Source of the DNA: Amycolatopsis pittospori
GTDB lineage: Bacteria; Actinomycetota; Actinomycetes; Mycobacteriales; Pseudonocardiaceae
Assembly: GCF_013870525.1 (NCBI RefSeq)
Contig: NZ_JACBXD010000031.1
Coordinates: forward strand, 1 to 64,000
Reading direction: 5' to 3'
DNA length: 64,000 bases
The notes below the pieces were generated by a model. The model saw nothing but the letters and a program-made list of their open reading frames with translations. It had not been told where the DNA came from and made no database searches. This document shows positions 19,007 to 37,679 of this stretch, piece after piece (position 1 is the first letter of the stretch; every line of letters starts with the position of its first letter). The translations under genes were made by a program, and so were the position numbers.

Positions 19007-19057
19007 CCGTGAAGGCCTCCTTCCCTACTCTCAAAGTAGGGAAGGAGGCCTTCACGG
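19007..19057. terminator. Hairpin with 23-bp perfect stem after the DUF1996 gene
   Basis: Arms 19007-19029 and 19035-19057 (CCGTGAAGGCCTCCTTCC and onward) pair perfectly around the loop CTCAA. It begins 14 bp after the stop and is the likely terminator. It is the first of four hairpins in the 425-bp gap 18994-19418. Confidence 0.75.
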
Positions 19058-19123: not shown

Positions 19124-19176
19124 GTTGCGAAAGCCACTTTCGCAACGTTGAAGGTTGCGAAAGTGGCTTTCGCAAC
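19124..19176. repeat. Nested palindrome element, copy 2
   Basis: The same two 23-bp modules as at 11839-11891, base for base, here separated by the 7-nt spacer GTTGAAG. Only the loop differs from the other copies. Confidence 0.75.
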
Positions 19177-19213: not shown

Positions 19214-19266
19214 GTCGGGAAAGGGTCTTTCAGGACGTTTTTCGTCCTGAAAGACCCTTTCCCGAC
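19214..19266. repeat. Hairpin of the AAAGGGTCTTTC family, copy 1
   Basis: A perfect 24-bp stem (19214-19237 with 19243-19266) around a TTTTT loop; the inner arm reads GAAAGGGTCTTTCAGGACG. A second copy with different outer base pairs is at 30077-30133. Confidence 0.7.
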
Positions 19267-19327: not shown

Positions 19328-19369
19328 CCGGTTTCTGGCCCGGCGTAGGGGTACCGGGCCAGAAACCGG
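19328..19369. terminator. Hairpin with 16-bp stem before the cyclase-like gene end
   Basis: The arm CCGGTTTCTGGCCCGG (19328-19343) pairs perfectly with 19354-19369 across a 10-nt loop. It lies 50 bp beyond the stop of the minus-strand gene ending at 19419 and is probably its terminator. Confidence 0.65.
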
Positions 19370-19418: not shown

Positions 19419-20108
19419 CTAGGCCGTCGTCGACAACCTGCTCACGCGGTCGAACACGAGCGGCGCGGGCATGGCCGGGTTCACTTCGGCCAGTACGGCG
19501 TCGGCGTCCAGACCCGGCAGGTGGATCCAGGCGCTGTCGGCGAAATCCGGGGTGGTGACGCTGATCCGGCCGCAGCGAGCGGGCGGGACCAGCGCGACAC
19601 TGAACGGCTCGACCACGTTGCGCCACACCGATTGCGAGACGATCATCCCGGCGCCGAACTTGTCGCCGGTCGGGTCGAGGCGGCACCAGTAGCCGACGGC
19701 GTCGTTGAAGGTCGACGCGCACAGCAGCCGGGTCAGTGTGATGTACGTGCGGTGGTAACGGTGGTTGTCCGCCATCGGTCCCATGTGGACGGCGACGCGG
19801 GCTCGCATCGGGACCCGGGCGTAGCGGTTGCGGGTGCGCAGCAGGTGGTCCAGATGGAACACGACCTCGCAGAGCTGCCCGACGGCCCGGTCCGGGTACG
19901 CGACCATGAGTCCGTCCCCGGTCTCCCGGAAATGCCGTGCGTCCCCCGGCGCGAGCCCGACCGCGTTGAAGGAGCGGGAAACCAGCGTTTCCATCTCAGT
20001 CTTCATCGGGTCCAGCAGGTCATCACTGGCCTTCGACGAACCGACGATGTCGACGGCGAGCACGGCATGGGTGTGCGCGTTGTAATGACCTGAGGTCAGC
20101 ACCTGCAT
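19419..20108 (-). CDS. Nucleotidyl-cyclase-like (class III) protein
   Basis: 229 residues, almost entirely one cyclase homology domain. The first metal-binding Asp is D20 in AVLAVDIVGSS and the second is D65 in FRETGDGLMVAYP, so both metal ligands of class III cyclases are present. The later segment, where cyclases usually have an Asn-x-x-x-Arg transition-state pair, reads YHRTYITLTRLLCAS, so specificity or activity may be altered. ATG 20108 follows AGGGG and is preferred over an upstream in-frame start. The gene lies 122 bp after a Crp/Fnr-type gene on the same strand, which suggests the two form a signal producer and receptor pair. Confidence 0.75.
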   Translation of the reverse strand: MQVLTSGHYNAHTHAVLAVDIVGSSKASDDLLDPMKTEMETLVSRSFNAVGLAPGDARHFRETGDGLMVAYPDRAVGQLCEVVFHLDHLLRTRNRYARVPMRARVAVHMGPMADNHRYHRTYITLTRLLCASTFNDAVGYWCRLDPTGDKFGAGMIVSQSVWRNVVEPFSVALVPPARCGRISVTTPDFADSAWIHLPGLDADAVLAEVNPAMPAPLVFDRVSRLSTTA

Positions 20109-20177
20109 CTCTGCGACCCCTCCCCTGATCGGTGAAAACTGGCGGGCAGGTTGCAGTGTTCCCACTCTTCACCGGAA

Positions 20178-20201
20178 GTTCTGTTCGGAACCGAACAGAA
20201 C
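20178..20201. promoter_or_regulatory. 24-bp perfect palindrome upstream of cyclase-like gene
   Basis: GTTCTGTTCGG (20178-20188) and its exact complement (20191-20201) flank AA. It is 70 bp upstream of the cyclase-like gene start and within the 122-bp gap after the Crp-type gene. It does not resemble the classical CRP site TGTGA-N6-TCACA. It may be the binding site of the adjacent Crp-type regulator or of another factor. Confidence 0.6.
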
Positions 20202-20230
20202 CTGACCACGCCATGGTCAACGCCAGTGAG

Positions 20231-20932
20231 CTAAGTCACACCTTTTTCCGTGATCACCCGCAATGCGTCACGGTCGATCACGGTGATCGCACGGCGCGAA
20301 CTGGCCACAACTCCCGCCTTCCGGAGCTTGTCCAGTGCCTGCGCGACCATGGTCCGGCCCATCGGGATGAACTGCGCGAGTTCGTCCTGGCTCAGCGGGA
20401 TCCCGATCCGCCAGCCGGCCGGAGTCCGGATGCCACAGACGTCGACGAGGTAGTCCAACCGCGTCGCGACCCGCGCCACCGCCTGCGGTTTCCACGACTG
20501 CGTCCGCTGACGCTGGGCGAGCACGAACCGGCGGGCGACGCTGACGAGCACCTCCCGCATCGCCGACGGATGGTCCAGCAGGAACCGGTTGAACTCGCTC
20601 GCCGCGATCCGCCGGACGTGGACCTCCTCGATGGCGACGACGTCGGCCATCCGGATGCCACCGGCGATCACCGCGATCTCGCCGTGCAGATCGCCGGGGA
20701 CCCCGACGTCGAGGATGACCGTCGCCCCCATCCGATCGGCGCTGGTCACCTTCACGTAGCCGTGCCGCAGCAGCATGACGAAGTCGCCGGGCTCACCCGC
20801 CCGCATCAGCGCCTGTCTGCTCTCGTAGGTCTGCGGGGTGCCCATTTCCAGCAACCGCGCACGGACGGGTTCGTCCAGCCGCTCCAGGAACGGACGTTCT
20901 CTTTCTTCGGCGGCCTCCGGGCCCAAACCCAC
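20231..20932 (-). CDS. Crp/Fnr family cyclic-nucleotide-binding regulator
   Basis: 233 residues. The N-terminal cNMP-binding barrel keeps the Glu of the phosphate cassette (E85 in LHGEIAVI) and the following Arg (R94 in GGIRMADV), so nucleotide binding is plausible. The C-terminal winged HTH reads LSQDELAQFIPMGRTMVAQALDKL. GTG 20932 is chosen because GGGAGGG lies six bases upstream; the frame stays open to 21058. It is upstream of and co-directional with the cyclase-like gene, and the pair sits at the end of the WD40-KAP gene series. Confidence 0.85.
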   Translation of the reverse strand: MGLGPEAAEERERPFLERLDEPVRARLLEMGTPQTYESRQALMRAGEPGDFVMLLRHGYVKVTSADRMGATVILDVGVPGDLHGEIAVIAGGIRMADVVAIEEVHVRRIAASEFNRFLLDHPSAMREVLVSVARRFVLAQRQRTQSWKPQAVARVATRLDYLVDVCGIRTPAGWRIGIPLSQDELAQFIPMGRTMVAQALDKLRKAGVVASSRRAITVIDRDALRVITEKGVT

Positions 20933-20961
20933 GAAACACCCTCCCAGGCAGTCGTGAACAC

Positions 20962-21327
20962 CTATCGCGGAGAGTAACCGAATCGACCACCCGATCCGGC
21001 GGCGGAACCGTCGTGCGTGGTGAAGATGCCCAGCCGCACGAGCTCTGACCTGATCCACTCGGCCAGCCGATGCAACGGTCCGTCTTCGGCCTCGACGAAG
21101 TAACTGTCCACGATCTGGTGTCGCCTGTCGGCGTGCTTCGCCGCATACAACAGCGCTGACCGTACCTCTGAGACCTTCAGCGGAGCGACCTTTATCCCGG
21201 GGGAGGGCCGCACGGTGCTCTTGGCGGCCATCACCGCCAGCACGGCCTCCTCCAGGCTGAACCGGTGCTCCACCGGTACGACCACATGTTCCACGCCCTC
21301 GACAACGCGGCGCCCGATCAACGGCAT
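20962..21327 (-). CDS. Hypothetical protein (121 residues)
   Basis: A soluble, alpha/beta-looking protein with no recognised domain. It is rich in charged residues (LHRLAEWIRSELVRLGIF near the C-terminus) and has no signal peptide or TM helix. It lies 29 bp upstream of the Crp-type gene and 50 bp downstream of the membrane-protein gene, all on the minus strand, so it is likely part of the same transcript. Its function is not known. Confidence 0.6.
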   Translation of the reverse strand: MPLIGRRVVEGVEHVVVPVEHRFSLEEAVLAVMAAKSTVRPSPGIKVAPLKVSEVRSALLYAAKHADRRHQIVDSYFVEAEDGPLHRLAEWIRSELVRLGIFTTHDGSAAGSGGRFGYSPR

Positions 21328-21377
21328 GGTGTCAGATCAGCATGACGCACGGCCGTAGTCTGTTCGCCACCGAACAC

Positions 21378-21893
21378 TCAGCGTGGTTCGACCGCCGCGG
21401 TCGCGTCTTCGACGTTGTCCCGCAACACCTGGAGGCGGAGTCCGAGCATGACCGGATCCGGGTTCTCGTCGCGCGCGTGGCGCTCCAGCTTCTCGGCCGT
21501 CTGCTTCACCGTCACCCGCAGTTCGACGACAGCGGGCGTGTTCACCCCGTCGTGGTCTTCGAGCACCTCCACCGCTCGCTGCAGCGCCTCCAACAGCTCC
21601 TTTTCACCGGGCTTCACCGTTCTGAGGGCGGTCAGCGCGCGGCCGAGCAGGCTGTAGTGATCGAACGCGGCGGCGGGCCGCGGCTGCTGCCGTCCCTCAC
21701 GCTCCGGCCGCCGCCGCCCGCCGTTCAGCACGAAGTACGCCACCTCGGCGGGGACCAGCACGGCGAACGCGGCGACGACGGCGAAGAGCCAGGCTCGCGG
21801 ATGCGGCGACGTCACCCCGTGGCCCGCCACGCCGGCGACGAGCGCGAGCACCACGGCGACGACGTGGAACCTGCGGTTCTCGGGATCGGCCAT
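21378..21893 (-). CDS. Small two-helix membrane protein
   Basis: 171 residues. Two TM helices (about residues 9-26 and 34-56) are followed by an Arg-rich stretch and a soluble C-terminal helical region of about 100 residues (DHYSLLGRALTALRTVKPGEKELLEALQRAVEVL). The start ATG 21893 is one base after the stop of the binding-protein/VWA gene, so the two are tightly coupled and may act together at the membrane. No family is recognised. Confidence 0.7.
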   Translation of the reverse strand: MADPENRRFHVVAVVLALVAGVAGHGVTSPHPRAWLFAVVAAFAVLVPAEVAYFVLNGGRRRPEREGRQQPRPAAAFDHYSLLGRALTALRTVKPGEKELLEALQRAVEVLEDHDGVNTPAVVELRVTVKQTAEKLERHARDENPDPVMLGLRLQVLRDNVEDATAAVEPR

Positions 21894-21894
21894 G

Positions 21895-23655
21895 TCAGAA
21901 GTTGCTGAACACGTTCACGAACATCTTGTCGATGCTCTGCGGGTCGACGGCCTTGTAGCTGCGGGCCTTGGACTTCTGCGCGATCTCGTCCATCACGCGA
22001 CCGTCGGCTTCGGGACCGTAGGCCATGGTGAAGATCCGGACGGAGTTGTCCAGCCGCGCGGCGTCGACGTCGTTCAGCACCTGCTCCTTGGTGTACCCGC
22101 CCTCGGTGTCCTTGCCGTCGGTCAGGAACACGATGGCGTTGATGAGGTTCGGGTCGAACTCGCGCCGCATCTTGGCGTTGGCGTCCACCACGGACCTGTA
22201 GAGCGCGGTGTCCCCCTTCGGCTGCAGATTCCGGATCAGGTCGATCATCGAGGTACGGACGTCCTTCACCTTGCCGATCGGCATTCTCTCCTCGGGCCCG
22301 TCCGTCGAGAACGTCCACAGCCCGACCTCGTCCTCGGGATGCAGAAGTCCGAGTTGCTCCACGATCTTGGGTTTCAGCAGGTCGATACGGCGGTCGGAGT
22401 ACGGCTTGTCCGAACGGTTCCGGTCGAACTTCTCGTTCATCGACGCGGAGAGATCCAGCACCAGCAGGATCCGGCCGCGTCGTTGCGTGTAGTCCCAGCC
22501 GTCCAGCATCTTCTGGATCTGGTCCCCGGTGGGCGTGCCGATCGGCTGGGATTCCGGGATTCCTTCGGTGCCGGTGTCCTTGGCCAGCTTGGCGTTGCCG
22601 CGGCCGTCCGGATCGCGGAACCCGAGGTCGCGAAAGCGCTGCTGCTGCCCGGGCGCCCGCAGGAAGTCGGAGAAGTCCTTGGCCGCCGCGCGCTGCTCCG
22701 CGGTCGCCTTGGCCGTGGTCAGGAAGGGATGGTCGATCAGCATCGTCCCTTCCGCGGGGTGGACGGCGACGAGCGGGCGGTCCAGGTCGGCGGGATCGTC
22801 CTGCAGTTGTTTCGGATCCCCGGTCGGCGCGCCGTGGTTGTAGAGGTAGACCATCTGTTCCTGCATCGCCATCGCGCTGATGTACGGCGTCGGCTTCTTC
22901 CGGTCCTCTTCGTACAGCGTCCGCAGGAAGGCGACCGAATCGTCGCTGTAGTAGGCGACGGAAGCCTCGACGCCTCGGACGAACTGAACGGCCTCCGCCG
23001 TCTCGATCTTGTCGTAGTCGCCGCCGGTCGCGGCGAAGTAGGTCGCGATCGTCGCGGCGAGACCCGAAGTCGACCGGCGCGGATTGTCCTTGCCCAGCGT
23101 CAGGTTCCCCCACTGGGCCTTGTCCGCGCCCTTCGACGCCCAGCCGCCGTTCTGATTGACCGCGAGCACGTCACGCCAGCCGATGCTGTTGCCCGGCCAG
23201 CCCATCGCGGTGGCCATCGGCTTCGGCATCGCGATCACCATCGGGCTGGTCGCGAGCGAGGTCCTCGGACCGCCGTCGATCAGGTCGCCTTTGCCGCGCT
23301 GGCGCAGCAGATCCAGCCAGAGCGACGAACTCGGCAGCCAGACCTGCGGTTCGGGCTGCTGTTCGTCGATGTCGTTCCAGCCGCCGGCGATGAGGTCGAG
23401 CGCGGCGCCGGACGTCTTCTTGTACGCCTCGACCTTCGCGCACTTGCCGCTGCCGAACGTCCGGTTCGTGGCGTTGTACCGCTCGGCCAGTTCGTGGATC
23501 AGGTCACCCTTCTCCGTGGAGGAGCTGGTGACCAGCCGGACGCAATCGGTCCGGGCGGCGTTCGAAGGAGCGGTGACCGCGGTCGCGAGCACGACGATCA
23601 CGATCGCCCCGACGACCGTGCCGAAGACGAGCGAAAGCCAGCCTGATCCCCGCAT
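21895..23655 (-). CDS. Substrate-binding-like protein fused to a von Willebrand A domain
   Basis: 586 residues. One N-terminal TM or signal anchor (residues 7-29) is followed by an extracellular binding-protein-like domain (CVRLVTSSSTEKGDLIHELAERYNA; VWLPSSSLWLDLLRQRG) and, from about residue 390, a VWA domain with the MIDAS motif DLSASMN and the later DGPEE and LTDGKDTEGG loops. MIDAS residues look intact, so metal-dependent ligand binding is expected outside the cell. It follows the WD40-KAP gene by 37 bp and precedes the small membrane-protein gene by 1 bp. A role in sensing or presenting a surface ligand is inferred. Confidence 0.78.
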   Translation of the reverse strand: MRGSGWLSLVFGTVVGAIVIVVLATAVTAPSNAARTDCVRLVTSSSTEKGDLIHELAERYNATNRTFGSGKCAKVEAYKKTSGAALDLIAGGWNDIDEQQPEPQVWLPSSSLWLDLLRQRGKGDLIDGGPRTSLATSPMVIAMPKPMATAMGWPGNSIGWRDVLAVNQNGGWASKGADKAQWGNLTLGKDNPRRSTSGLAATIATYFAATGGDYDKIETAEAVQFVRGVEASVAYYSDDSVAFLRTLYEEDRKKPTPYISAMAMQEQMVYLYNHGAPTGDPKQLQDDPADLDRPLVAVHPAEGTMLIDHPFLTTAKATAEQRAAAKDFSDFLRAPGQQQRFRDLGFRDPDGRGNAKLAKDTGTEGIPESQPIGTPTGDQIQKMLDGWDYTQRRGRILLVLDLSASMNEKFDRNRSDKPYSDRRIDLLKPKIVEQLGLLHPEDEVGLWTFSTDGPEERMPIGKVKDVRTSMIDLIRNLQPKGDTALYRSVVDANAKMRREFDPNLINAIVFLTDGKDTEGGYTKEQVLNDVDAARLDNSVRIFTMAYGPEADGRVMDEIAQKSKARSYKAVDPQSIDKMFVNVFSNF

Positions 23656-23692
23656 GCGCCCGCCCCCTCGCCGTCTCAGCGCGCAAGTGTAT

Positions 23693-26323
23693 CTACCTCA
23701 TGATTCCCGGTTCCGGCTCCTCGGTCACCAGATCGTAGGTTTCGAAACTGAAGCGGGCGAGGGTGCCCACCCAATTCCGATAGACCTGTAGATCATCGAA
23801 GGATTCGACGTCTATCCGCCAATCAGGTGGAAAGGCTCCGGAAAGCGATTCCCCGGCGGAAAGCGCGGTGAAGGTCGAGCGCGCGGCCACCGGATCGGCG
23901 ACCAGCAGGGTGAGCAGGACGAGCACCGCCCGGTACGGCCCGCCGACGAACCGCGTCAGCTCCGCGTCGGGAATGCCGATGCGCACGAGCCGGTAGAGAT
24001 TGACCAGTTTCCGGATCTCGCGCGGCGTGTTCAGCCGTTTCCGCAGCACGTGGACGAAATCGCGTTCGACGTCGGTGAGCCGTAGCCGGTCGGGGCGCAT
24101 GTTGTAGAACGTCGGCGGAGTCGTGTCCTTGACGATGACCTCGACCGGCCCGCCGTTTTCCCCGCGTTCGTCGTTTTCCTCGACGTCCGGCCATTCTTCC
24201 CGCTCCGACGCATCGGACTCCCGGTGTTCGATCGGCATCAGGGCGTCGATCAGTTCGTCCGCCGCGGCACCCATCGGACGCAACGCGAACACGATCTGGA
24301 AGATCTTGTCGAGGTACTCCGTCCGCAGCATCTGCCCGTCCCCGAACAGTTCTTCGTGGTGCTGATCGAGGCATCGCCGCAGCCATCGAGGATCGACGGC
24401 CACCACCACGACGAACGCGGGCAGCGCCAGCAGCAGGTGTACCGCCGCGAGCACCTCGACGACCTTCGACGGCGGGCAGCGGTCGAGGTCGTCGATATAG
24501 AGCACGATCCGTTCCAGCGGCGGCTCGCCGGTGCCGCCCGCGAGGTGCCATTCCTTCTGCGCCGCCACCAGATCGTCGCTCAGATCCGCGAGGTCCTCCC
24601 GGACCCGGGTGAAAACCCCTTGGTAGTCACCGTATCGACCGGTCCTGGCCTCTTCGATCAGGTCGCCGAGCCGCGTGGCCGCGTCCAGCCGGCGGAGTCG
24701 TTCCTCGGTCTCCCGGACCTCGGTTTCGAAGCGTTCCGCCCGCCTGTCGACGTCGTGCCGCAGTTTGTCCAATGTGGACTTCACCGGCGCGAGGGCCGAG
24801 CGGGCGGTGGTGAGCGCCGGGGTGAGCACGGCGCCGAGCGCGACGATCGCCCCGGCCGCCGCGAGGATCGCGTTGTGCCACAAGGCCCAGCCGGTGATCG
24901 CGGCGGCGACGCCGAGTACGCCCAGCACCGCGTACCCGGCGACGGCGAGCCGCCGCCGTCGGCGTTCGGCCCGGTCCACTCCGGACACCAGCAGCCGCCA
25001 GCGCCAGGTGAGCGGGGAATCCGCTTTGACCGCACGGAGACCGGCGAGCCGGGTCCGCAGATCCTCGCGTTCGGCCCGCACCTCCGCGGCGTCCGCATGC
25101 GTCTCGGGCGCGCCGAGATTCCGGAACAGGTGATCCACCAGCCCGACCCAGAGGTGGTCGTCGTGGTATTGCCAGGCGTTGAACCGGATCTGCCGGATCT
25201 CGCCGGCGAACACGCTGTTGGCGGCGTCCCCTCGGGAGCGGCGGGCCAGCTCGGCCACCCGGTCCGCCACCTGCCGCACGAAACTCGATTTGCCGGAACC
25301 CCAAGGGCCCAGCAGGGCGACGCACAACGGCGGACTGGTCTCGCGGTCGGCGATGACCGCGGCGAGCGTGCGCACGTCGTCCTGGAAACCGATCAGGTCG
25401 ACGGCGCTTTCGACGTCGGGCGTGATACGCGGGCGCGCCTTCCCCGGTTTGGGCTCGACGAAGCCGGTGCCGTCGATCTGGTTGCCGAAGCGGTCCCACA
25501 CCCGGATCGTGCGATCGTCCCCGACGGAGATGATCTTCTCGTTGCCCGCGGTGCAGGCGATCGCGCGAACGTTGCCCTCGTGTCCCTTGAGGAGGGTGTA
25601 CTCGGACGGGTTCTCGATCTCCCGGACGTAGACCTCGCCGCCGGAACCGCCGGACAGCACCAGTTTCCCGTCCGGGCTGAACGCCAAGGCGCGCACGACC
25701 CCGGCATGTCCCGGGAAGACGAGCGCGGGATCGCCCTTCCGCCCCCAGGACCGGACCGTCTCGCCCTCACCGGACAGTATCTGGGCGCCGTCGGCCGAGA
25801 CCGCGACCACATGGACCGCTCCCGCACCGCCGAACCGGTAGTGGGAAACGACTTCGCGGTCCCAGAGCCGCACGCCGCCGGTGTCGTCACCGGCGACCAC
25901 GACCCGGCCGTCCGGGGTCACCGCGACCGATTCGATCTCCGGGCCGCCGGTGCGGAGGCCGTGCACGGTCACGCCGTCCATCCGCCGGACCTCGACGGTG
26001 CTCCCCGCGCCGGACACGGCGAAATCCCTCGCCACCGCGACCGCGAGGGTCCGCTTGGTGGTCTGGACCTCAGGGGGAAGTGCCTCGCGACCGGTGAGCC
26101 GCCAGCGCCGCACGGTCACCCCATCGCAACCGACCACGTGCCGTCCCGAAATACCCACCGCGAGCACCGGCTGGTCGTGGCCGCTCAACACGAATCGCTG
26201 TGCGCCGGTCTCCAGGTCCCAGACCCGCACCGTCCTGTCCGCACCCCCGGTGACCAGGCGATTTCCGTTCACCGCGACCGCGAGGATCGGTTCTTCGTGC
26301 CCGGTGAATCGTGCCGTCGTCAT
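23693..26323 (-). CDS. WD40-repeat protein fused to a KAP-family P-loop NTPase
   Basis: 876 residues. The N-terminal 300 residues hold about seven WD40 blades (RVWDLETG, RLWDREVV, RVWDRFGN are the clearest), enough for one propeller. A KAP NTPase follows: Walker A GPWGSGKSS near residue 338, two adjacent TM helices around 445-500 inserted in the domain as is usual for KAP proteins, and Walker B IVLYIDDLDRCPPSKVVEVL near 605. KAP NTPases are membrane-associated and often found in predicted conflict or phage-exclusion loci. ATG 26323 begins directly before the first WD40 blade. It is the first gene of a six-gene minus-strand series. Confidence 0.85.
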   Translation of the reverse strand: MTTARFTGHEEPILAVAVNGNRLVTGGADRTVRVWDLETGAQRFVLSGHDQPVLAVGISGRHVVGCDGVTVRRWRLTGREALPPEVQTTKRTLAVAVARDFAVSGAGSTVEVRRMDGVTVHGLRTGGPEIESVAVTPDGRVVVAGDDTGGVRLWDREVVSHYRFGGAGAVHVVAVSADGAQILSGEGETVRSWGRKGDPALVFPGHAGVVRALAFSPDGKLVLSGGSGGEVYVREIENPSEYTLLKGHEGNVRAIACTAGNEKIISVGDDRTIRVWDRFGNQIDGTGFVEPKPGKARPRITPDVESAVDLIGFQDDVRTLAAVIADRETSPPLCVALLGPWGSGKSSFVRQVADRVAELARRSRGDAANSVFAGEIRQIRFNAWQYHDDHLWVGLVDHLFRNLGAPETHADAAEVRAEREDLRTRLAGLRAVKADSPLTWRWRLLVSGVDRAERRRRRLAVAGYAVLGVLGVAAAITGWALWHNAILAAAGAIVALGAVLTPALTTARSALAPVKSTLDKLRHDVDRRAERFETEVRETEERLRRLDAATRLGDLIEEARTGRYGDYQGVFTRVREDLADLSDDLVAAQKEWHLAGGTGEPPLERIVLYIDDLDRCPPSKVVEVLAAVHLLLALPAFVVVVAVDPRWLRRCLDQHHEELFGDGQMLRTEYLDKIFQIVFALRPMGAAADELIDALMPIEHRESDASEREEWPDVEENDERGENGGPVEVIVKDTTPPTFYNMRPDRLRLTDVERDFVHVLRKRLNTPREIRKLVNLYRLVRIGIPDAELTRFVGGPYRAVLVLLTLLVADPVAARSTFTALSAGESLSGAFPPDWRIDVESFDDLQVYRNWVGTLARFSFETYDLVTEEPEPGIMR

Positions 26324-30166: not shown

Positions 30167-33100
30167 TCAGGTCACCTCGCGGATGACCAAACGTTCCGAA
30201 GCCCGTTCGATCGCCGCTTCCACCGCGCCGACCCGGTCCGCCAGCAGGCCCACCGCACCGACGGCCCGGCTCATCGGATCCTCGTCGTCCCCGCCCAGGG
30301 CCTGCGCTCGCAGGTAGGCCGATTTGACGTCCGCCCAGCGCCGCGCCTGGTCGTCGCTCAGCCGTCCGCGCAGTTCGGCCAGTTTGAGCAGGTTGGCCTC
30401 GGCGCCCGAGGTCAGCGTCTGCGCCTCGCCGGCGTAGTGGTCGTCGATCAGCGCTTCGAGTTCGGCGTCGTTCATCGCGGGCACGATCCGGCCGGCGAGT
30501 TTGTTCATGTTCCGGTACGAACCCTGGAGCTGGAACGGCGGTTCGACCCGGGACGCGTCCGCCTGCGCCGCCGAAGCGATGTAGGCCTGGTTGTTCTTCA
30601 GGACGATCCGCTGCACCTGGATCAGTTTCCGCAGCACGGCGAGGATCTGTTCCAGTTCGGTCGCCGAGTACGCGTGCTTCAGCTGATCCGCGCGCACCGA
30701 ACCGTCACCGCGGGCCAGGCGCACCAGAACGTCCACATCGGACCGTTCGCGCGAGACCAGCGGCGCCAGCACGGTGTTCGCGGTGAGCGAGTTCTCGATG
30801 TAGCTCAGCGCGAACAGATCTTCCTTGCCCGAAAGCACGTCGCCGAGATTCCACACGTCCGCACGGTTGGCGAGCATGTCGGGGATCCGGAACCGCTTGC
30901 CCTGCTCGGTGTACGGGTTACCGGCCATGCAGACCGCGAACCGCTTGCCGCGCAGGTCGTAGGTCCGCGTGCGGCCTTCCCACACGCCTTCCATCCGCCG
31001 CTGCGCGTCGCACAGCGAAATGAACTTCTGCAGCAGTTCGGGCGACGTGTGCTGGATGTCGTCCAGGTACAGCAGCACGTTGTTGCCCTGCTCCAGCGCG
31101 AACGAGATCTTCTCGACCTCCTGCCGCGCGGTCGCGTTGGGCGCGTCCGCCGGGTCGACCGAGGTGACGTCGTGCCCGAGCGCCGGACCGTTCACCTTGA
31201 CGAACACCAGCCCGAGGCGGCTCGCGACGTACTCCATGAGCGTCGTCTTGCCGTACCCCGGCGGCGAGATGAGCAGCAGCAGGCCGGACTGATCGGTGCG
31301 CCGTGCGTCGCCGGTCGCGCCGAGTTGCTTGGCGAGGTTGTCGCCGATCAACGGCAGGTAGACCTCGTCGAGCAGCCTGTTGCGCACGAAGGCGCTCATC
31401 ACCTTCGGCTTGTACTCGCCCAGCCGCAGCCTGTCCCGCTCGGCCGCCACCAGTTCGTTGCGCTGCCGCTGGTACGCCCGGAAACCCGGGACCCGGTCGC
31501 GCCGGAACCGCAGCGTCCTGGCGAGCGTCTCGTCGAGCCGCAGCGTCAGGGACCTGTTGACGATGCGGGCATGCGAACCGAGCAGACCGTCCACAGTGGC
31601 CGAAAGCTCCGCCGAGGAGTCGTACCGGGGCAGGTCGGCCAGCTCGATCGCGACGGCCTCCGCCAGCTCGTCACCGGGCGTGCCCGAAGCCTCCACAAAG
31701 GACTTCAGCCACGCTTCGGCGAGCTGGTGCCGGTCGGCGAGGTCGTCGAGCGCGCGCAGGTCGTCGGTGAAGCTCCGGCGGTCGAGCCGGAACTTGTCGA
31801 GCAACGTCCGCGCGCCACCGCTGGTGACGAAGCCCGGCGACCCGTCGGCCAGTTCCTCGAACAGGTACTCGCCCGCGGATTCGAGATCCAGCGTCAGTCC
31901 GGAAGACGCGGCGAACGCGGACATCGCCTCGGTGAGTTCCCGCGCCAGCGCGTCGATCGCCGTGGTGTGCCCGAACGCCTCCCGCACCCGCGCGAGCGAC
32001 GCGGACCGCGTCGTCCACGCGGACTTCGCCGCCTCTTCCGCACCGAACGCCCAGAACAGCTGGGCGGCGGCCCGGGCGGCGGGCGGGTAGCGCAGCAATC
32101 CCGCGGCGGACCGCAGGCGCAGCAACGCGGACAGGATCGCGGTGGCGTCGTGGTCGTGCACGCCCCGCGCGTACCCCTCGTCGTACCGGTCCCCCGCGAC
32201 GCGGCGGACGACCTCGAGCAGGCCGTCGTCCTGCAGATCCGGCTTTTCGAGCAGGATCGACGTCGCCAGGTACTCGGCGCGATAGACCTCGGGCGACTCC
32301 GAGACCAGCAACTGGTCCCAGTACGGCCGCGTCGCCTCGAACGACTCGTCCCGCACGGGAGACCGGTAGTCGGTCCCGGTGATCGCGAACTTCATCCCGC
32401 CCTCGTGCGGCACCAGGGTGAGGTCGATGTCCTGCGTGTTGACCGCGAAGGTGTTGCGGCCCAGGCGGATCGTCTCCCCGCCCTCGCCGTAGAGGTCGAG
32501 CCGGTCGCGCAGCGCGCGGCCCGCCTCCTGGCGAGCGGCCTTGACACGGCCTTCGAGTTCTTCGGCGCGCACCTGGTCGCCGAGGTCGCGCAGTTCGGCG
32601 ACGACGCTGCGCAGCTTCGCGACCATCGGGTCGGACGCGAAGTAGGTGTTGATCTCGTCGACGGAGCCGAGCGTGCCGACCCGCCTGGTCACACTCGCGA
32701 GGATCCGCTCGGCCGAATCGACCAGCCTGTCCGCGCGGCGCGCCCGTTCGTCGAGCAGCGCCTGCTTGCGCGAGGAGAACGCTTCGTAGACGTCGGTACG
32801 CTTCTCCCCCAGCGAGACCAGGAAATCGTCGAACTCGCCGAACCGCGATTCGAGGTTTTCCAGCTGCAGCAGCAAGCGACCCAGCTGCTCGTCGCAGCGG
32901 TCCGGGGTGTCCGCGACCGCGAGCCCGCCGGTGATGGCCTGCGCCAGCAGCGCGAACTCGGCGGCGAACTCCGCCCGGCCCTCGGTCTCCAGCAGTTCCT
33001 TGCGCCGTGCCTCCAGGGTGGCCCTGGCCCGGTTGACCCCGCCGATGACCTCGCCGACGCGCTCCAGGATCTTCGTCCGCACCACGGCGTCCGCGATCTC

Positions 33101-35050
33101 CAGCCCGCCGACGACGTCGGTGAGGACCTCCAGCCCGCCGGACTGTTCGTCGAGCCGCTCGGCGACCGGGACCGCCTCGGCGACGGTCGTGATCGCGCCC
33201 GCCGCGGTGACCAGCCCGTCCACCTCGGCGTGATAGCTCGTGAACGCGTCCTCGCCCTGCAGGAACCGCACGGCCCGCTGAGCGGCCTCGCCGAACTCCG
33301 TGTCCAGGCCGGCGATCAGCTTGTCCACGCGGTCCGTGTCGACGTACCGCAGTTCCCGCACGGTGACCAGATGGCCTCGCGCGCGATGCATTTCGGCGAG
33401 CCGGCGCACCCACGCGTCGGCCGCGTTCAGCGCCTCGCCCCGCACCCTCCGCACGAGCGAGGCGACGTCCGCCTCTGCCTCGTCGACGGCTTCCGCCGCC
33501 TGCGCGGTGAGCGAGGTGACCGTCTCGAACTCGTCGAGCACCTGCTCCGCGGTGACGCGGACGTCGGAGAGCGGCGAACGCAGGTCGCCGAGTTCGGCCT
33601 CCCCGAGCCAGTGATAGTGGTCGAAGACGCGCGCGCACGCGGCGATCAGCGCCTCGAACACGGCCGCCGACGGCGCCATCTCGCCGACCATCCGGCCGAT
33701 CGAGAGGCAGTCGGAGATCCCGCGGACCAGATCGGCGTTGCCGACCCGCTCCAGAGGCCCGGTCCCGGCCGGCTGAGAGGCGGCGTAGGTGTCCGATTGG
33801 AACGGCGTCCGCCACACCTGCATCGGGTGCACGCGGCTCGGTTCGTCGGACGACGCCCGGAACAGCACCATCGTGCCGTCGTCGAACAGCGAGTACCCGT
33901 GGCACGGGATCGGGTTCGAGACCTCTTTGCGGATCACGTTGTACGGCAGGAGAAGCGAGCGGCCGTCGGCCCTGGCGTGGAAGACGTAGAGCACGTCCTC
34001 CCCGTTGGGCGAGCGGATCACCCGCTCGAATTCGAGACCGTCCACGGTGGTGTCGAACGTCTTGCTGACACCGGTGTCGAGGTAGTAGCCGCCGGGGAAG
34101 ATGATCCCGTGGTCCTCGGGCAGCCGCTGGCACGCCTGCCCGATCCCGTCGAGGCGCACCACGTCCCGCGTGCGGGTGTTGAACACCAGGTACCGGTGTT
34201 CGGTCTCCTTGTACGGCAGCATCCTCAGCAGGATCAACGGGCCGATCCTGGCGTAGGACACCTCGGCGTCGGCCAGGCTCTGCAGCGGCTCGTCGACAGG
34301 CTCCGAGTAGACACCCTCGCCGGTCTCGGTGTTGTTCTCGACCTTGATCGTCAGGTTTCCGCCGACGGTCTCGACGAACACCTCGTCCTCGATCGAGATA
34401 TGCGGATGCCGCCCGAGAACGTGGTGCTCGCGGGCGGTCTCGATCCACTCGAAGTCGTGCGACGGCGGGAAGACGTGGTCGCGTTCACCTCGGCTGTCCA
34501 CATAGGACACCGTGCCGTCCGAGGCGATCCCCCAGCGCAGCACGCGGATGTCCTCGGTCCGGGGACCGATCTGGAACACGGCGAGCAGTTTGCCCTCGAC
34601 CCGCCGCAGCTGCAGCAGCTTCGCCTGCCGGTAGTACCGGTACAGCTCGGCGAAGTCACGGGCGAACTGCTCGTCACGCAGCAGTCCAGGCAGCTCCTCG
34701 GCGGGCACGTCGTCGAAACGGAACGCTTCCTCGTCATGACTGAAGCCGTGCAGCGAGAAGACGTCGTCGACCGTCGTCTCGGGTTTGAGCCCGATGAAGA
34801 CGTTGTAGCCGAACAACATCCGCCCGCCGACCGACACGACGTCCCGCGGCACGCAGTTGTTCTCGGTGCGGATCCGTTCCGTGCCGATCAGCGCGAGCTG
34901 CGCGCTGCCGAAGACCCCGAGTCGCGCGGTGTTGAGTTCGTCCGCGCGTTTCGCCAGTTCGGCGGCCTGTGTGGCGAGCCGGGCGCGGAGCACCTCATAG
35001 GTGCCCGCGTCCAGCTGCTCCGTTCCTGCCGCCGGTTCGGTCGCCGTCAC
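30167..35050 (-). CDS. Giant AAA ATPase (DUF3686-type 'DNA repair ATPase')
   Basis: 1627 residues. The long N-terminal part (to about residue 1100) combines a beta-rich region (LFGYNVFIGLKPETTVDDVFSLH; FPGGYYLDTGVSKTF) with long helices and coiled coils. The C-terminal third is an AAA domain with Walker A PPGYGKTT near residue 1265, Walker B VLLYLDDIQH near 1326 and a sensor-1-like MAGNPY. From memory this is the layout of DUF3686/AAA proteins labelled DNA-repair ATPases; direct evidence for repair is lacking. GTG 35050 overlaps the flotillin stop as GTGA. It is the third gene after a YqiJ-like and an SPFH gene, so it probably works at the membrane with them. Confidence 0.8.
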   Translation of the reverse strand: MTATEPAAGTEQLDAGTYEVLRARLATQAAELAKRADELNTARLGVFGSAQLALIGTERIRTENNCVPRDVVSVGGRMLFGYNVFIGLKPETTVDDVFSLHGFSHDEEAFRFDDVPAEELPGLLRDEQFARDFAELYRYYRQAKLLQLRRVEGKLLAVFQIGPRTEDIRVLRWGIASDGTVSYVDSRGERDHVFPPSHDFEWIETAREHHVLGRHPHISIEDEVFVETVGGNLTIKVENNTETGEGVYSEPVDEPLQSLADAEVSYARIGPLILLRMLPYKETEHRYLVFNTRTRDVVRLDGIGQACQRLPEDHGIIFPGGYYLDTGVSKTFDTTVDGLEFERVIRSPNGEDVLYVFHARADGRSLLLPYNVIRKEVSNPIPCHGYSLFDDGTMVLFRASSDEPSRVHPMQVWRTPFQSDTYAASQPAGTGPLERVGNADLVRGISDCLSIGRMVGEMAPSAAVFEALIAACARVFDHYHWLGEAELGDLRSPLSDVRVTAEQVLDEFETVTSLTAQAAEAVDEAEADVASLVRRVRGEALNAADAWVRRLAEMHRARGHLVTVRELRYVDTDRVDKLIAGLDTEFGEAAQRAVRFLQGEDAFTSYHAEVDGLVTAAGAITTVAEAVPVAERLDEQSGGLEVLTDVVGGLEIADAVVRTKILERVGEVIGGVNRARATLEARRKELLETEGRAEFAAEFALLAQAITGGLAVADTPDRCDEQLGRLLLQLENLESRFGEFDDFLVSLGEKRTDVYEAFSSRKQALLDERARRADRLVDSAERILASVTRRVGTLGSVDEINTYFASDPMVAKLRSVVAELRDLGDQVRAEELEGRVKAARQEAGRALRDRLDLYGEGGETIRLGRNTFAVNTQDIDLTLVPHEGGMKFAITGTDYRSPVRDESFEATRPYWDQLLVSESPEVYRAEYLATSILLEKPDLQDDGLLEVVRRVAGDRYDEGYARGVHDHDATAILSALLRLRSAAGLLRYPPAARAAAQLFWAFGAEEAAKSAWTTRSASLARVREAFGHTTAIDALARELTEAMSAFAASSGLTLDLESAGEYLFEELADGSPGFVTSGGARTLLDKFRLDRRSFTDDLRALDDLADRHQLAEAWLKSFVEASGTPGDELAEAVAIELADLPRYDSSAELSATVDGLLGSHARIVNRSLTLRLDETLARTLRFRRDRVPGFRAYQRQRNELVAAERDRLRLGEYKPKVMSAFVRNRLLDEVYLPLIGDNLAKQLGATGDARRTDQSGLLLLISPPGYGKTTLMEYVASRLGLVFVKVNGPALGHDVTSVDPADAPNATARQEVEKISFALEQGNNVLLYLDDIQHTSPELLQKFISLCDAQRRMEGVWEGRTRTYDLRGKRFAVCMAGNPYTEQGKRFRIPDMLANRADVWNLGDVLSGKEDLFALSYIENSLTANTVLAPLVSRERSDVDVLVRLARGDGSVRADQLKHAYSATELEQILAVLRKLIQVQRIVLKNNQAYIASAAQADASRVEPPFQLQGSYRNMNKLAGRIVPAMNDAELEALIDDHYAGEAQTLTSGAEANLLKLAELRGRLSDDQARRWADVKSAYLRAQALGGDDEDPMSRAVGAVGLLADRVGAVEAAIERASERLVIREVT

Positions 35051-37056
35051 TGCTTCGCGGGGGCGAGGGCGGCGACGGACTTGTCGGCGAGGCCGAGCCG
35101 CTGCGCCATGGCCAGCAGTTCCTGCACCTTGCCGGTGTCCGGGCCACCCGCCTGCAGCTGCTTGGCCAGGAAGGCCGACAGCGTCAGGTTCTTCACGTCC
35201 TCGGTGCTCACCGAGCCGAGCAGCTTGCCGATGTCGTCGGTGAAGCTGCCGGAGCCGTCGAGCCACGACTTCCCGAGGGTCTGGACGACGTCCGAGTGCT
35301 CGACGAAACCGTCCACGCTCTTGCCGAGGCCGATGGAGCCGATGACCTTCTCGAAGAACATCGTCTCGCCGCCGACGATGTCGATGTCGGCCTTCTCCAG
35401 CCCGATCCCGAGCACCGTGGCCTGGGCCTCGGCGACCTCGCGCTGGACGTTGAGCGCCGCGAGCCGGATCTCCTTCTCGGCCTCCAGGCGCAGGCGGTAC
35501 TCCTCGTGCTGACGGCTGGCCGTGTCGAGCGCGGCCATCGCGGCGGCCTTCTCGGTGAGACCTTCGGCCTCGCCCTTGAGCTTGTCGCGCATCCCGTCGG
35601 CGAGCACGATCGCCTTCTCGCGTTCGACGATCGCCTCGGCGCGGCCGACCTTCTCCAGCGCGTCCGCGTCGCGTTCCTTGACCTGCGCCGCGGCCAGGCC
35701 GATGGCGGCCTCCTCGGCCTGGATGCCCTCCGCCAGGCGGATCTTCGCGCGGGTGTCCAGTTCGGCGGCCTGCTGGCGCGCTTCGGCCAGCGTCAGCTCC
35801 TCGCGGGCCTTGTGCTTCGACGCCGCCTCGGCGGCTTCCGCGGCCTTGATGTCCTTGACGAGGTTTTCCTGCGCCTCCGCCTCGGCCCGGATGATGATGG
35901 CCGAGCGCTGACGCTCCGCCTCTTCGACGACGCGGAGCTTCTTGATGTTCTCTTCCTGCTCCGCCACCGTCTTCTCGACCGCGATCCGCTCGCGGATCAC
36001 CTCGGCGATCGACCGCTTCTCGGTCTCGACTTCCTTGTCCTTGGCGATGCGGGACAGTTCGGTCTCGCGTTCGCGGCCGATGACCTCGAGCAGCCTGTCC
36101 TTCTCGATGCGTTCGCTCTCGATCGCGATCACCCGCTCGCGGTTCTTGCCCGCGACCTCGATCTCACGCTGCTGGTTCTGGTGCTGGATGCCCAGCTGCT
36201 CGTCCGTGCGCAGGCCCGCGGCCTGCGACTTGAGCCGCTCCTCCGCCTGCACCTTGGCGATCTCGGCCTCTTCGCGTGCCCGCATGGTCTCGACCTCGCG
36301 GCGTTGCTTGATCTCGGCGTCGGCCTGCCGGCGCTCCAGTTCGAGGATCGCCTCACGCGCGTCCACGTTCTGGCGGGTGATCTCTTTCTCCTCGCCGCGG
36401 CGGAACTCGTTGGTCCGCACGTGCTCGATCGCGGTCAGCTCGGTGATCTTGCGGATACCCTGCGCGTCGAGGATGTTCGCGGAATCGAGCTGCGCCATCG
36501 GCGTCTGCTCGAGGTAGTCGATGGCCGCGTCCTCGAGGCTGTATCCATTGAGGTCGGTGCCGATGACGCGGATGATCTGGTCACGGAATTCGTGACGCTT
36601 GGTGTAGAGATCCACGAAGTCGAGCTGCTTGCCGACGGTCTTCAACGCTTCCGAGAACTTGGCGTTGAACAGTTCCTGCAGGGTCGCCTCGTCGCTGGCG
36701 CGTTCCGTACCGATCGCCTGCGCGACCTTGATGACGTCCTCGACGGTCTTGTTGACCCGCACGAAGAACGAGATCCGGATGTCGGCGCGGATGTTGTCCC
36801 GGCAGATCAGGCCTTCACGGCCGGTCCGGGTGATCTCCATCGCCTTGACCGAGGTGTCCATGATCTCGGCCTTGTGCAGCACCGGGAGCACGATCGCCCC
36901 GGTGAAGGTGACGTCGACCCGGCGGACCTTCGAAATGATCAACGCCTTGCCCTGAGGCACCTTCTTGAACAACCTGGTGATCGTGAAGAGCAAGACCAGG
37001 AGGATGACAACTATCACGGCGATCAGAACGCCGGCCCCCACGCTGATGGCACCCAT
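35047..37056 (-). CDS. Flotillin-like SPFH/Band 7 membrane protein (YqiK-like)
   Basis: 669 residues. One TM helix (about residues 7-27) is followed by an SPFH/Band 7 domain (VPQGKALIISKVRRVDVTFTG to about residue 200) and a very long Glu/Ala/Arg-rich coiled coil (about 215-560), then a flexible C-terminal tail. This is the flotillin/YqiK layout: oligomeric scaffolds of membrane microdomains. AAGGGAAA precedes ATG 37056. It lies 17 bp after the YqiJ-like gene and overlaps the giant ATPase gene, so the three form one operon. Confidence 0.9.
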   Translation of the reverse strand: MGAISVGAGVLIAVIVVILLVLLFTITRLFKKVPQGKALIISKVRRVDVTFTGAIVLPVLHKAEIMDTSVKAMEITRTGREGLICRDNIRADIRISFFVRVNKTVEDVIKVAQAIGTERASDEATLQELFNAKFSEALKTVGKQLDFVDLYTKRHEFRDQIIRVIGTDLNGYSLEDAAIDYLEQTPMAQLDSANILDAQGIRKITELTAIEHVRTNEFRRGEEKEITRQNVDAREAILELERRQADAEIKQRREVETMRAREEAEIAKVQAEERLKSQAAGLRTDEQLGIQHQNQQREIEVAGKNRERVIAIESERIEKDRLLEVIGRERETELSRIAKDKEVETEKRSIAEVIRERIAVEKTVAEQEENIKKLRVVEEAERQRSAIIIRAEAEAQENLVKDIKAAEAAEAASKHKAREELTLAEARQQAAELDTRAKIRLAEGIQAEEAAIGLAAAQVKERDADALEKVGRAEAIVEREKAIVLADGMRDKLKGEAEGLTEKAAAMAALDTASRQHEEYRLRLEAEKEIRLAALNVQREVAEAQATVLGIGLEKADIDIVGGETMFFEKVIGSIGLGKSVDGFVEHSDVVQTLGKSWLDGSGSFTDDIGKLLGSVSTEDVKNLTLSAFLAKQLQAGGPDTGKVQELLAMAQRLGLADKSVAALAPAKQ

Positions 37057-37073
37057 AGTTTCCCTTTTCTGCT

Positions 37074-37658
37074 TTAGATGTCCAGCGACTCGACCCAGAA
37101 GAACTCGCCCTCGGAGTCGTAGTCGTAAAGAACTACGCGGCTCCCCGCCGTCAGGTTGCCTTGGCCCGCCTGCCGAACGTCCACAATGGCCGTCGACCCG
37201 TCGGCGGCGGCGACTTCGGCCTGGCCGAAGTCATGCGTCACCGACGAGGTCCGGATGACCGCGGCGCGACCGACGAAGTCCGTCCTGCTCGGCTCCTTCG
37301 CGGGACCGAAAACACGGCGTAGCGGCACGACCATCACCCTCGTCCCGAGTGTGCCGAGGACGAGCGCGACGGCGAGCACGCCGGCACCGAGCCCGATCCT
37401 CGCCGGTGTCGAAAGCTCCAAGTCATCGAGAAGAACCGTCCCTACCAGGCTGGCGAACCAGGTGAATGCGATCAGCAAAGAGAGCGAAAGGGACAGTGGG
37501 ACCCCACCGAAACCGGCCAGGAGCCCGTCGCCGCCGTCGAAGTCATCGGTGTCGACGGCGCCGAGCAGTGCCAGCAGCCAATAGCCGATCACGACGATCA
37601 GCAGAAAGCTGAAGAGCACGGCCGGAAACCCCAGTGCCGCGGTGACGAACCCGCCCAT
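37074..37658 (-). CDS. YqiJ-like membrane protein with OB-fold (NfeD-related)
   Basis: 194 residues. Three TM helices (about residues 8-30, 58-80 and 88-110) precede a small C-terminal beta domain (DFVGRAAVIRTSSVTHDFGQAEVAAADGSTAIVDVR) resembling the OB-fold of NfeD/YqiJ proteins that pair with flotillins. ATG 37658 is preferred because GGGGGAGGGA lies nine bases upstream; an in-frame ATG at 37679 is the alternative and adds seven residues. It is the first gene of the operon and likely the membrane partner of the SPFH protein. Confidence 0.8.
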   Translation of the reverse strand: MGGFVTAALGFPAVLFSFLLIVVIGYWLLALLGAVDTDDFDGGDGLLAGFGGVPLSLSLSLLIAFTWFASLVGTVLLDDLELSTPARIGLGAGVLAVALVLGTLGTRVMVVPLRRVFGPAKEPSRTDFVGRAAVIRTSSVTHDFGQAEVAAADGSTAIVDVRQAGQGNLTAGSRVVLYDYDSEGEFFWVESLDI

Positions 37659-37679
37659 CGCCGTCGTTCCCTCCCCCAT

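Follow-up and report, generated by a model that had tools for sequence, protein, structure and literature searches.

The six genes at positions 19419–26323 of a 64,000-nt stretch of Amycolatopsis pittospori DNA (assembly GCF_013870525.1, contig NZ_JACBXD010000031.1, positions 1–64,000; hereafter the window) are likely to constitute two neighbouring, separately controlled signalling units. Unit A (genes 1–3) encodes a WD40–KAP nucleoside triphosphatase (NTPase), a protein with an extracellular solute-binding domain and a VWA domain (SBP-VWA), and a small membrane protein. Unit B (genes 4–6) encodes a protein of 121 amino acids (U121), a Crp-type regulator (CRP) and a protein with a predicted class III nucleotidyl-cyclase fold (CYC). 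All six open reading frames (ORFs) lie on the minus strand and run from 26323 to 19419. The co-directional order and the gaps of 37, 1, 50, 29 and 122 bp from gene 1 to gene 6, as given in an initial annotation of this DNA, are borne out by the ORF coordinates. Six genes in one direction are by themselves unremarkable for an actinomycete. Two features are above chance: the order of genes 1–2–3 is kept across genera and in another family, and Crp-type and cyclase genes are recurrently linked.

Distribution of the two units

We drew 297 genomes of the family and searched them for the KAP protein (match at E ≤ 1e-100) and the 121-aa protein (E ≤ 1e-8). KAP was found in 28 genomes and the 121-aa protein in 17, with both present in 11, KAP only in 17 and the 121-aa protein only in 6. 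All 11 genomes with both proteins belong to one genus, and the two matches lie 2.4–2.7 kb apart on a single contig (in G515, G548, G596, G622 and G674 the positions of KAP and gene 4 were seen, not the full six genes). Among the 26 members of this genus in the draw, 11 have both proteins, 2 the 121-aa protein only, none KAP only and 13 neither, so that the adjacency of the two units fits one event in one clade. The initial annotation had proposed a single six-gene pathway; with the overlap confined to one genus, that proposal falls on this gene-neighbourhood comparison.

The trio of unit A is found on its own. Inspection of the loci of all 17 KAP-only genomes, which lie outside the genus, showed the KAP–VWA–membrane order in 13 of them from five genera: G024, G090, G111, G519, G535 and G551 (genus g24), G093 and G538 (g27), one genome each of g21 and g25 (G615, G666), and G543, G592 and G619 (g45). 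The order is missing in G066, G078, G627 and G557. At E ≤ 1e-8 the 121-aa protein is missing from all 13 trio genomes, and their fetched loci contain no CYC-like (1e-8), CRP-like (1e-10) or U121-like (1e-5) gene. The trio also occurs in G175 and G457, from another family; the search of 394 genomes drawn from the class used the cyclase and KAP profiles only, and gene 4 was checked in these two genomes within the fetched stretches. In an earlier draw of 120 family genomes KAP and VWA genes are adjacent in the window's genome, four other members of its genus, G093, G024, G090 and G111, and the best cyclase matches outside the genus fall in other genomes (G095, G034, G068, G096). The KAP–VWA–membrane trio thus stands as a conserved module, and the idea in the initial annotation of a surface-sensing unit in these three genes is supported.

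Unit B is likewise found without the trio. A scan of GTDB species genomes (84,980) with the cyclase gave 16 loci, of which 10, all from Amycolatopsis, carry the six genes in order; we take the name Amycolatopsis orientalis clade for these ten. A. rubida has genes 4–6 and A. jejuensis genes 5–6, neither with the trio within ~9 kb. Two Prauserella loci have genes 4–5 divergent from gene 6, and two Allokutzneria loci have genes 5–6, all without the trio. Five of the six genomes with the 121-aa protein only were inspected (all except G524). Gene 4 lies beside CRP and CYC genes in G637, G664 and G095, and has no CRP or CYC matches in the 9–10 kb fetched from G040 and G074. G637, a member of the genus Amycolatopsis, carries genes 4–6 without the trio, and its genome has no KAP match at E ≤ 1e-100. 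Adjacent pairing of units A and B is seen only in the A. orientalis clade.

The two halves of the locus also differ in their conservation. Averaged over the 10 named loci, identity to the window's proteins is 87.9% for KAP, 78.8% for VWA and 62.8% for the small membrane protein (TM2), compared with 98.6% for U121, 98.2% for CRP and 95.1% for CYC, indicating that the two halves evolve under different constraint.

In the second family (G175 and G457), the trio has an EAD1 + cyclase-like gene at a distance of 1.7–1.8 kb, and more EAD1, TIR and cyclase-like genes follow within ~13 kb. In the loci of this family, L117 (5080–8905) and L118 (6584–9639), the EAD1/cyclase-like gene is next to the trio; that of L117 also has a TIR domain, and L117 has a GAF–EAL gene as well. 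In g45, proteins of ~250 aa adjoin the trio (L182 10044–10811, L183, L184); they look similar by eye to one that adjoins a VWA–membrane pair in G045 (L163), and the two that were scanned, those of L182 and L163, have no Pfam match.

Palindromes in the intergenic gaps

The exact palindrome TGTTCG-N4-CGAACA occurs only twice in the 64 kb window, at 21361–21376 in the 50-bp gap and at 20182–20197 in the 122-bp gap; if one mismatch is tolerated, there are 3 copies compared with 0.26 expected. In an alignment of 11 Amycolatopsis loci, the segment from the first palindrome to the ATG of gene 4 is near-invariant and the preceding end of gene 3 is variable, with a single substitution in the palindrome of A. 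regifaucium. Across 11 loci, the alignment columns in the gap before gene 6 are on average 97% identical. The 16-bp core of the second palindrome is kept in all 10 named loci of the A. orientalis clade, 7 of which have one change in the outer arms. Genes 3 and 4 lie 809 bp apart in A. orientalis (L137 6974–7782), where five inverted repeats with arms of 22–41 nt fill part of the gap, and 179 bp apart in A. regifaucium; despite these longer gaps the distance from palindrome to gene 4 is unchanged. Related palindromes are present in A. rubida (GTTCTGTGCACCGGTGAACAGAAC, in the CRP–CYC gap) and in Prauserella (CGAACGTTCACCGGTGAACGTTCG, between the divergent genes).

Conserved in this way across 11 loci, the palindromes in the 50-bp and 122-bp gaps suggest that genes 4 and 6 each have a promoter of their own. 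A genome-wide regulon was considered and set aside: the strict form TGTTCGGNNCCGAACA was found once in the window's genome and at 1, 4, 2 and 3 sites in four relatives, and we claim no regulon.

Proteins of unit A

The WD40, KAP, VWA, binding-protein and Crp-type domains named in the initial annotation were all recovered by Pfam. Gene 1 matches WD40 (6.3e-32) and KAP_NTPase (5.2e-28, 98.6 bits compared with a cut-off of 20), and its Walker A motif (GPWGSGKSS) and DDLDRC-type Walker B motif (IDDLDRC) both align with those of relatives. Between the two motifs are hydrophobic helices at 459–477 and 486–504, assigned, like all transmembrane helices here, by hydropathy only. Gene 2 matches SBP_bac_11 (8.8e-18) followed by VWA (1e-9), with a single helix at 9–27 on the N-terminal side of both. 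Its residues D401, S403, S405, T483 and D513 are invariant in 12 of 12 aligned proteins and fit the motif of an intact metal-ion-dependent adhesion site (MIDAS). In gene 3 there are two hydrophobic helices (9–27 and 38–56) and no Pfam or NCBIfam family above the cut-off; a PspM-like identity was rejected at 18.9 bits compared with a cut-off of 80. In profile–profile comparison it matches the gene at the same position in g24 (E 4.9e-6, 86% probability) and weakly that in g27 (37%). The trio's listed Pfam families include no killing domain (nuclease, TIR or other).

Relatives of gene 2 show the same ectodomain with other partners. The window's genome has another SBP-VWA gene (G000, contig C107, 13504–15246; L058), which is 37% identical to gene 2 and is followed by its own membrane protein, with no KAP gene within the 19 kb fetched; an SBP-VWA gene with a small membrane protein and no adjoining KAP gene also occurs in G100 and G004. 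In the subset of VWA relatives that was inspected, the SBP-VWA region is fused to Pkinase in L173 (3203–6238, with two more helices at the N-terminus), to a helix-turn-helix domain, HTH_31, in L171, L172 and L174 (below the Pfam cut-off in L171), and to the trypsin-like domain Trypsin_2 in L062 (8267–10648). The order in these fusions is the kinase, HTH or trypsin domain, then a hydrophobic helix, then SBP-VWA. This interchange of kinase, HTH and protease suggests that SBP-VWA is a receptor input and that KAP stands in the place of the output; in the trio, the SBP-VWA receptor probably has the KAP NTPase as its cytoplasmic output.

Proteins of unit B

Gene 4 has no Pfam (at E 0.1), NCBIfam or PADLOC match, and its AlphaFold model, with a predicted local distance difference test (pLDDT) score of 65, is uninformative. 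Gene 5 matches cNMP_binding (4.8e-16) and HTH_Crp_2 (2.3e-12). Its residues G84, E85, R94 and A96 are invariant in 9 of 9 aligned proteins, and the window and the 10 named loci share an identical recognition-helix region in their Crp-type proteins.

Gene 6 has no Pfam match at E 0.1 and no NCBIfam family above the cut-off. The best Foldseek match of its AlphaFold model (pLDDT 75) is the cyclase Ma1120 (2.1e-7); the VIA comparison with Ma1120 gives Z 16.0 over 155 residues with a root-mean-square deviation of 2.7 Å, and a profile match to the same protein has E 9.2e-5. Gene 6 is accordingly predicted to have a class III cyclase fold, in agreement with the class III cyclase-like call that the initial annotation had made for this 229-aa protein. 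D20 and D65, placed by motif and conserved without exception in 16 aligned proteins, are candidates for the two metal-binding aspartates. R127 is invariant, and the position expected for the transition-state Asn, mapped along with the Arg by the class III motif, is Ile in the window's protein. The gene 6 protein would make, or only bind, a cyclic nucleotide.

In a set of fetched loci, 22 of 30 cyclase-like genes have a Crp-type gene no more than two genes away. The proteins encoded by these 22, five of them from the window's clade, are 226–295 aa long; of the 8 cyclase-like proteins without a nearby Crp-type gene, 7 are long (410–789 aa) and one has 289 aa.

Some cyclase relatives are organized differently. 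Sets of three genes encoding a CRP, a cyclase-like protein and a degenerate P-loop (STAND-like) protein are found in L125, L127, L129, L132 and L133, and also in L128 and L124. In these seven loci, from two other families, the protein after the cyclase gene has 642–770 aa; four of the seven have a sub-threshold match to nSTAND3, and by eye the usual P-loop Lys is present in none of them. At five of the seven loci the C-terminal tail of the cyclase scores higher against the N-terminus of its own neighbour than against the six others, with 0 of 2000 shuffles as good. L128 (26 of 2000 shuffles) does not have its own neighbour as best pairing, and L124 has no match (1062 of 2000); with shorter stretches the values are 1 of 2000 for L133 and 658 of 2000 for L128. 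These tail matches resemble amyloid signalling pairs (PMC8086366), and adaptor domains that match between cyclic nucleotide monophosphate (cNMP) cyclases and inactive modules of the STAND type have been described before (PMC8195603). By eye, gene 6 differs from BASS-type amyloid signalling pairs in lacking both a C-terminal tail of the kind seen in its relatives and a matching neighbour, which those relatives have, and the tail matching is therefore a lead on the cyclase family and not on the window locus.

Layout of the locus

The coordinates of the genes and palindromes are collected in Table 1. Genes of relatives were called with a simple codon-usage script, and their start sites are approximate.

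Table 1. Genes and palindromes of the six-gene locus, in window coordinates
Feature	Position	Strand	Description
Gene 1	23693..26323	-	876 aa, WD40 propeller and KAP P-loop NTPase with two-helix membrane insert
Gene 2	21895..23655	-	586 aa, N-terminal membrane anchor, extracellular solute-binding domain and VWA domain
Gene 3 (TM2)	21378..21893	-	171 aa, two-helix membrane protein, C-terminal part polar
First palindrome, TGTTCG-N4-CGAACA	21361..21376		gap 5' of gene 4, probable operator/promoter element of unit B
Gene 4 (U121)	20962..21327	-	121 aa, fold not assigned
Gene 5 (CRP)	20231..20932	-	233 aa, GTG start, Crp-type regulator with cNMP-binding domain and HTH
Second palindrome, 24 bp, GTTCTGTTCGGAACCGAACAGAAC	20177..20200		CRP–CYC gap, probable operator of gene 6
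Gene 6 (CYC)	19419..20108	-	229 aa, predicted class III nucleotidyl-cyclase-fold protein

On the 3' side of gene 6 there are four strong inverted repeats (19007–19057, 19124–19176, 19214–19266 and 19328–19369); a 20-base arm of the first has 128 copies in the window's genome, 130 in G015 and 0 in G095. Elsewhere in the window, three co-directional genes at 30167–37679 encode a 1627-aa DUF3686/AAA ATPase, a 669-aa protein and a 201-aa protein. By eye the second is flotillin-like and the third a membrane protein; neither has a Pfam match at 1e-4.

Comparison with known systems

Literature searches on the trio found no described system that combines a WD40–KAP protein, an SBP-VWA protein and a membrane protein. 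The closest known arrangement in its logic is GlnH–GlnX–PknG, a mycobacterial nutrient-sensing operon in which PknG is the proposed output, according to the part of PMC6069109 considered here. As in the trio, three genes of these Actinobacteria encode an extracellular solute-binding domain, a membrane protein and a cytoplasmic output enzyme. The differences described in the same part of that source are that GlnH is a putative lipoprotein, that GlnX has predicted periplasmic four-helix bundles and that the output is a kinase; no VWA domain is mentioned there, and no kinase is among the Pfam families listed for our six genes. The trio may work like GlnH–GlnX–PknG but is not a member of that system.

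Gene 1 resembles other members of the KAP family (PF07693), such as PifA and QatA, in its Walker A motif, its DDLDRC Walker B motif and the helices inserted in the NTPase domain. It differs from KAP proteins of the PifA/QatA type in its N-terminal WD40 propeller and in its operon with an SBP-VWA and a small membrane protein. Its PADLOC matches fall on the shared NTPase core or on the WD40 repeats, and membership in QatABCD was rejected, the QatA equivalog score being 75 bits compared with a cut-off of 600. Kidins220 is also a member of the KAP family.

VWA-centred conflict systems share vWA, NTPase, cNMP cyclase and CRP-like domains with the locus, as far as the part of Kaur et al. 2020 (PMC7159879) considered here describes them. 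The ternary systems described there combine vWA with MoxR and VMAP, the whole word "KAP" is absent from the main text, and extracellular vWA and periplasmic-binding-protein domains are mentioned for other systems. The Pfam matches listed for the six genes, which for gene 1 are the top 25 of 38 families, include neither MoxR nor VMAP.

Gene 6 is like Ma1120 of Mycobacterium avium in its predicted fold and its two candidate metal-binding Asp residues, and unlike it in the low identity (~20%), the lack of a Pfam model match at E 0.1 and the Ile at the expected transition-state Asn. It is like Pycsar in that the cyclase adjoins a cNMP-binding protein and in its fold match to the cUMP synthase 7r65 (Z 14.5). 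In Pycsar, however, the partner is a TIR or membrane effector, whereas gene 5 is a Crp-type protein with HTH_Crp_2, and its PADLOC matches span residues 20–147 only.

Alternative explanations

Several observations weigh against a division into two separately controlled units, or against individual parts of it. Wherever the trio's KAP occurs in the genus (11 genomes), gene 4 is next to it, and the 10 named loci all hold the six genes; from this co-occurrence, selection for pairing of the units is possible. G175 and G457 each have two cyclase-like genes, and G175 a Crp-type gene, within ~13 kb of the trio. The 50-bp gap between genes 3 and 4 permits read-through, and a scan for sigma-70-type promoters found 0 compared with 0.6 expected. 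No palindrome of this type lies beside unit B in A. jejuensis or Allokutzneria. A looser palindrome with up to one mismatch has 28 sites in the genome, including those of the locus, compared with 3 for a reversed control, and with this many looser sites the putative operator may not be specific. The Ile at the expected transition-state Asn means that the gene 6 enzyme may be inactive. The third gene of the trio is poorly conserved; in G615, G666, G175 and G457 it was assigned by size, position and helices only, and the third-gene model itself included the third genes of four g24 and g27 genomes.

Part of this evidence is shared by the explanation that the six genes form one pathway, in which SBP-VWA senses, the KAP NTPase acts as a switch, the cyclase provides a nucleotide signal and the Crp-type protein acts on transcription. 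The co-directional genes with short gaps, the 2.4–2.7 kb spacing of gene 4 in every KAP genome of the genus and the six-gene sets of the named clade fit such a pathway, as do the EAD1 and cyclase-like genes near the trio in G175 and G457. Against it are the 17 genomes that have KAP without gene 4 and the 6 with the reverse, the separate conserved palindromes 5' of genes 4 and 6, the long inverted repeats that part the two units in A. orientalis, and the different divergence rates of genes 1–3 and 4–6. We consider a single pathway quite unlikely, and it is the co-occurrence in the genus together with the G175 and G457 neighbourhoods that keeps it under consideration. Alternatively, the trio could be an anti-phage or other conflict system, with KAP as a switch and SBP-VWA sensing envelope damage or a surface attacker. 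PADLOC matches to the KAP cores of PifA (57 bits) and QatA (55 bits) are in favour of this, and so is the position of the trio beside EAD1, TIR and cyclase-like genes in G175 and G457; KAP ATPases are described, in a part of PMC8195603, as replacing STAND modules in some predicted counter-invader systems. Yet the trio occupies a stable place in the chromosome. All 15 six-gene loci share one gene upstream of KAP, and 14 of them share the gene that follows the cyclase, G054 being the exception (some genomes were counted twice). Among the g24 trio loci the upstream neighbour is shared by 6 of 6 and the downstream neighbour by 5 of 6. No transposase or integrase was noticed by eye among these neighbours, for which no dedicated search was made. 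Of the conflict-system link drawn in the initial annotation, the likeness at the level of single domains stands, from the PADLOC matches, whereas the QatA score is far from its cut-off and the families listed for the trio include no killing domain. A conflict role for the trio is, in our judgement, improbable without being far-fetched.

A role of the trio in envelope work or uptake, such as metal or oxyanion handling or the assembly of surface proteins with the KAP NTPase as energy source, is very unlikely. In its favour, SBP_bac_11 is a family of binding proteins, VWA domains bind proteins via a metal site, and an NTPase that carries a membrane insert could perform work. Against this, there is no permease among the six genes, the partner has two helices only, and the kinase, HTH and protease found on the same ectodomain in relatives fit signalling better. 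Two separately controlled signalling units remain the explanation that we prefer.

Proposed mechanism and implications

From the domains, gene order, conservation, separability of the units, footprinted palindromes and predicted cyclase fold we infer the following mechanism. Unit A would be a transmembrane receptor relay, with the SBP-VWA protein, held in the membrane by its single helix, as the binder of an extracellular ligand. The SBP-VWA signal would be passed across the membrane by the small membrane protein, together with KAP's two-helix insert, to the WD40–KAP NTPase, which would act as the cytoplasmic output and be switched by NTP binding or hydrolysis, with the propeller as a docking site for partners. 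The cyclase–Crp unit is probably an autoregulated relay: the cyclase-fold protein would make (or only bind) a cyclic nucleotide, and the Crp-type protein would sense it and bind the palindromes 5' of gene 4 and gene 6, where the putative promoters would lie. The 121-aa protein may be an accessory of unit B. Coupling of units A and B is possible.

These results lead us to a broader and more speculative suggestion. SBP-VWA may be a modular class of actinomycete receptors with a swappable output (a kinase, an HTH domain, a protease or a separate WD40–KAP protein), the trio being KAP with an extracellular input, and the A. orientalis clade may have acquired the cyclase–Crp relay as a transcriptional arm; we put this forward tentatively, as a possibility that we rate below even. 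KAP NTPases are widespread and, to our knowledge, mostly have no known input. The conserved operon described here sets a KAP NTPase behind an extracellular SBP-VWA ectodomain, and the question of its input thereby becomes testable by ligand screening with the ectodomain in soluble form. Unit B offers a compact cyclase–Crp pair with a defined palindrome, which is testable in vitro.

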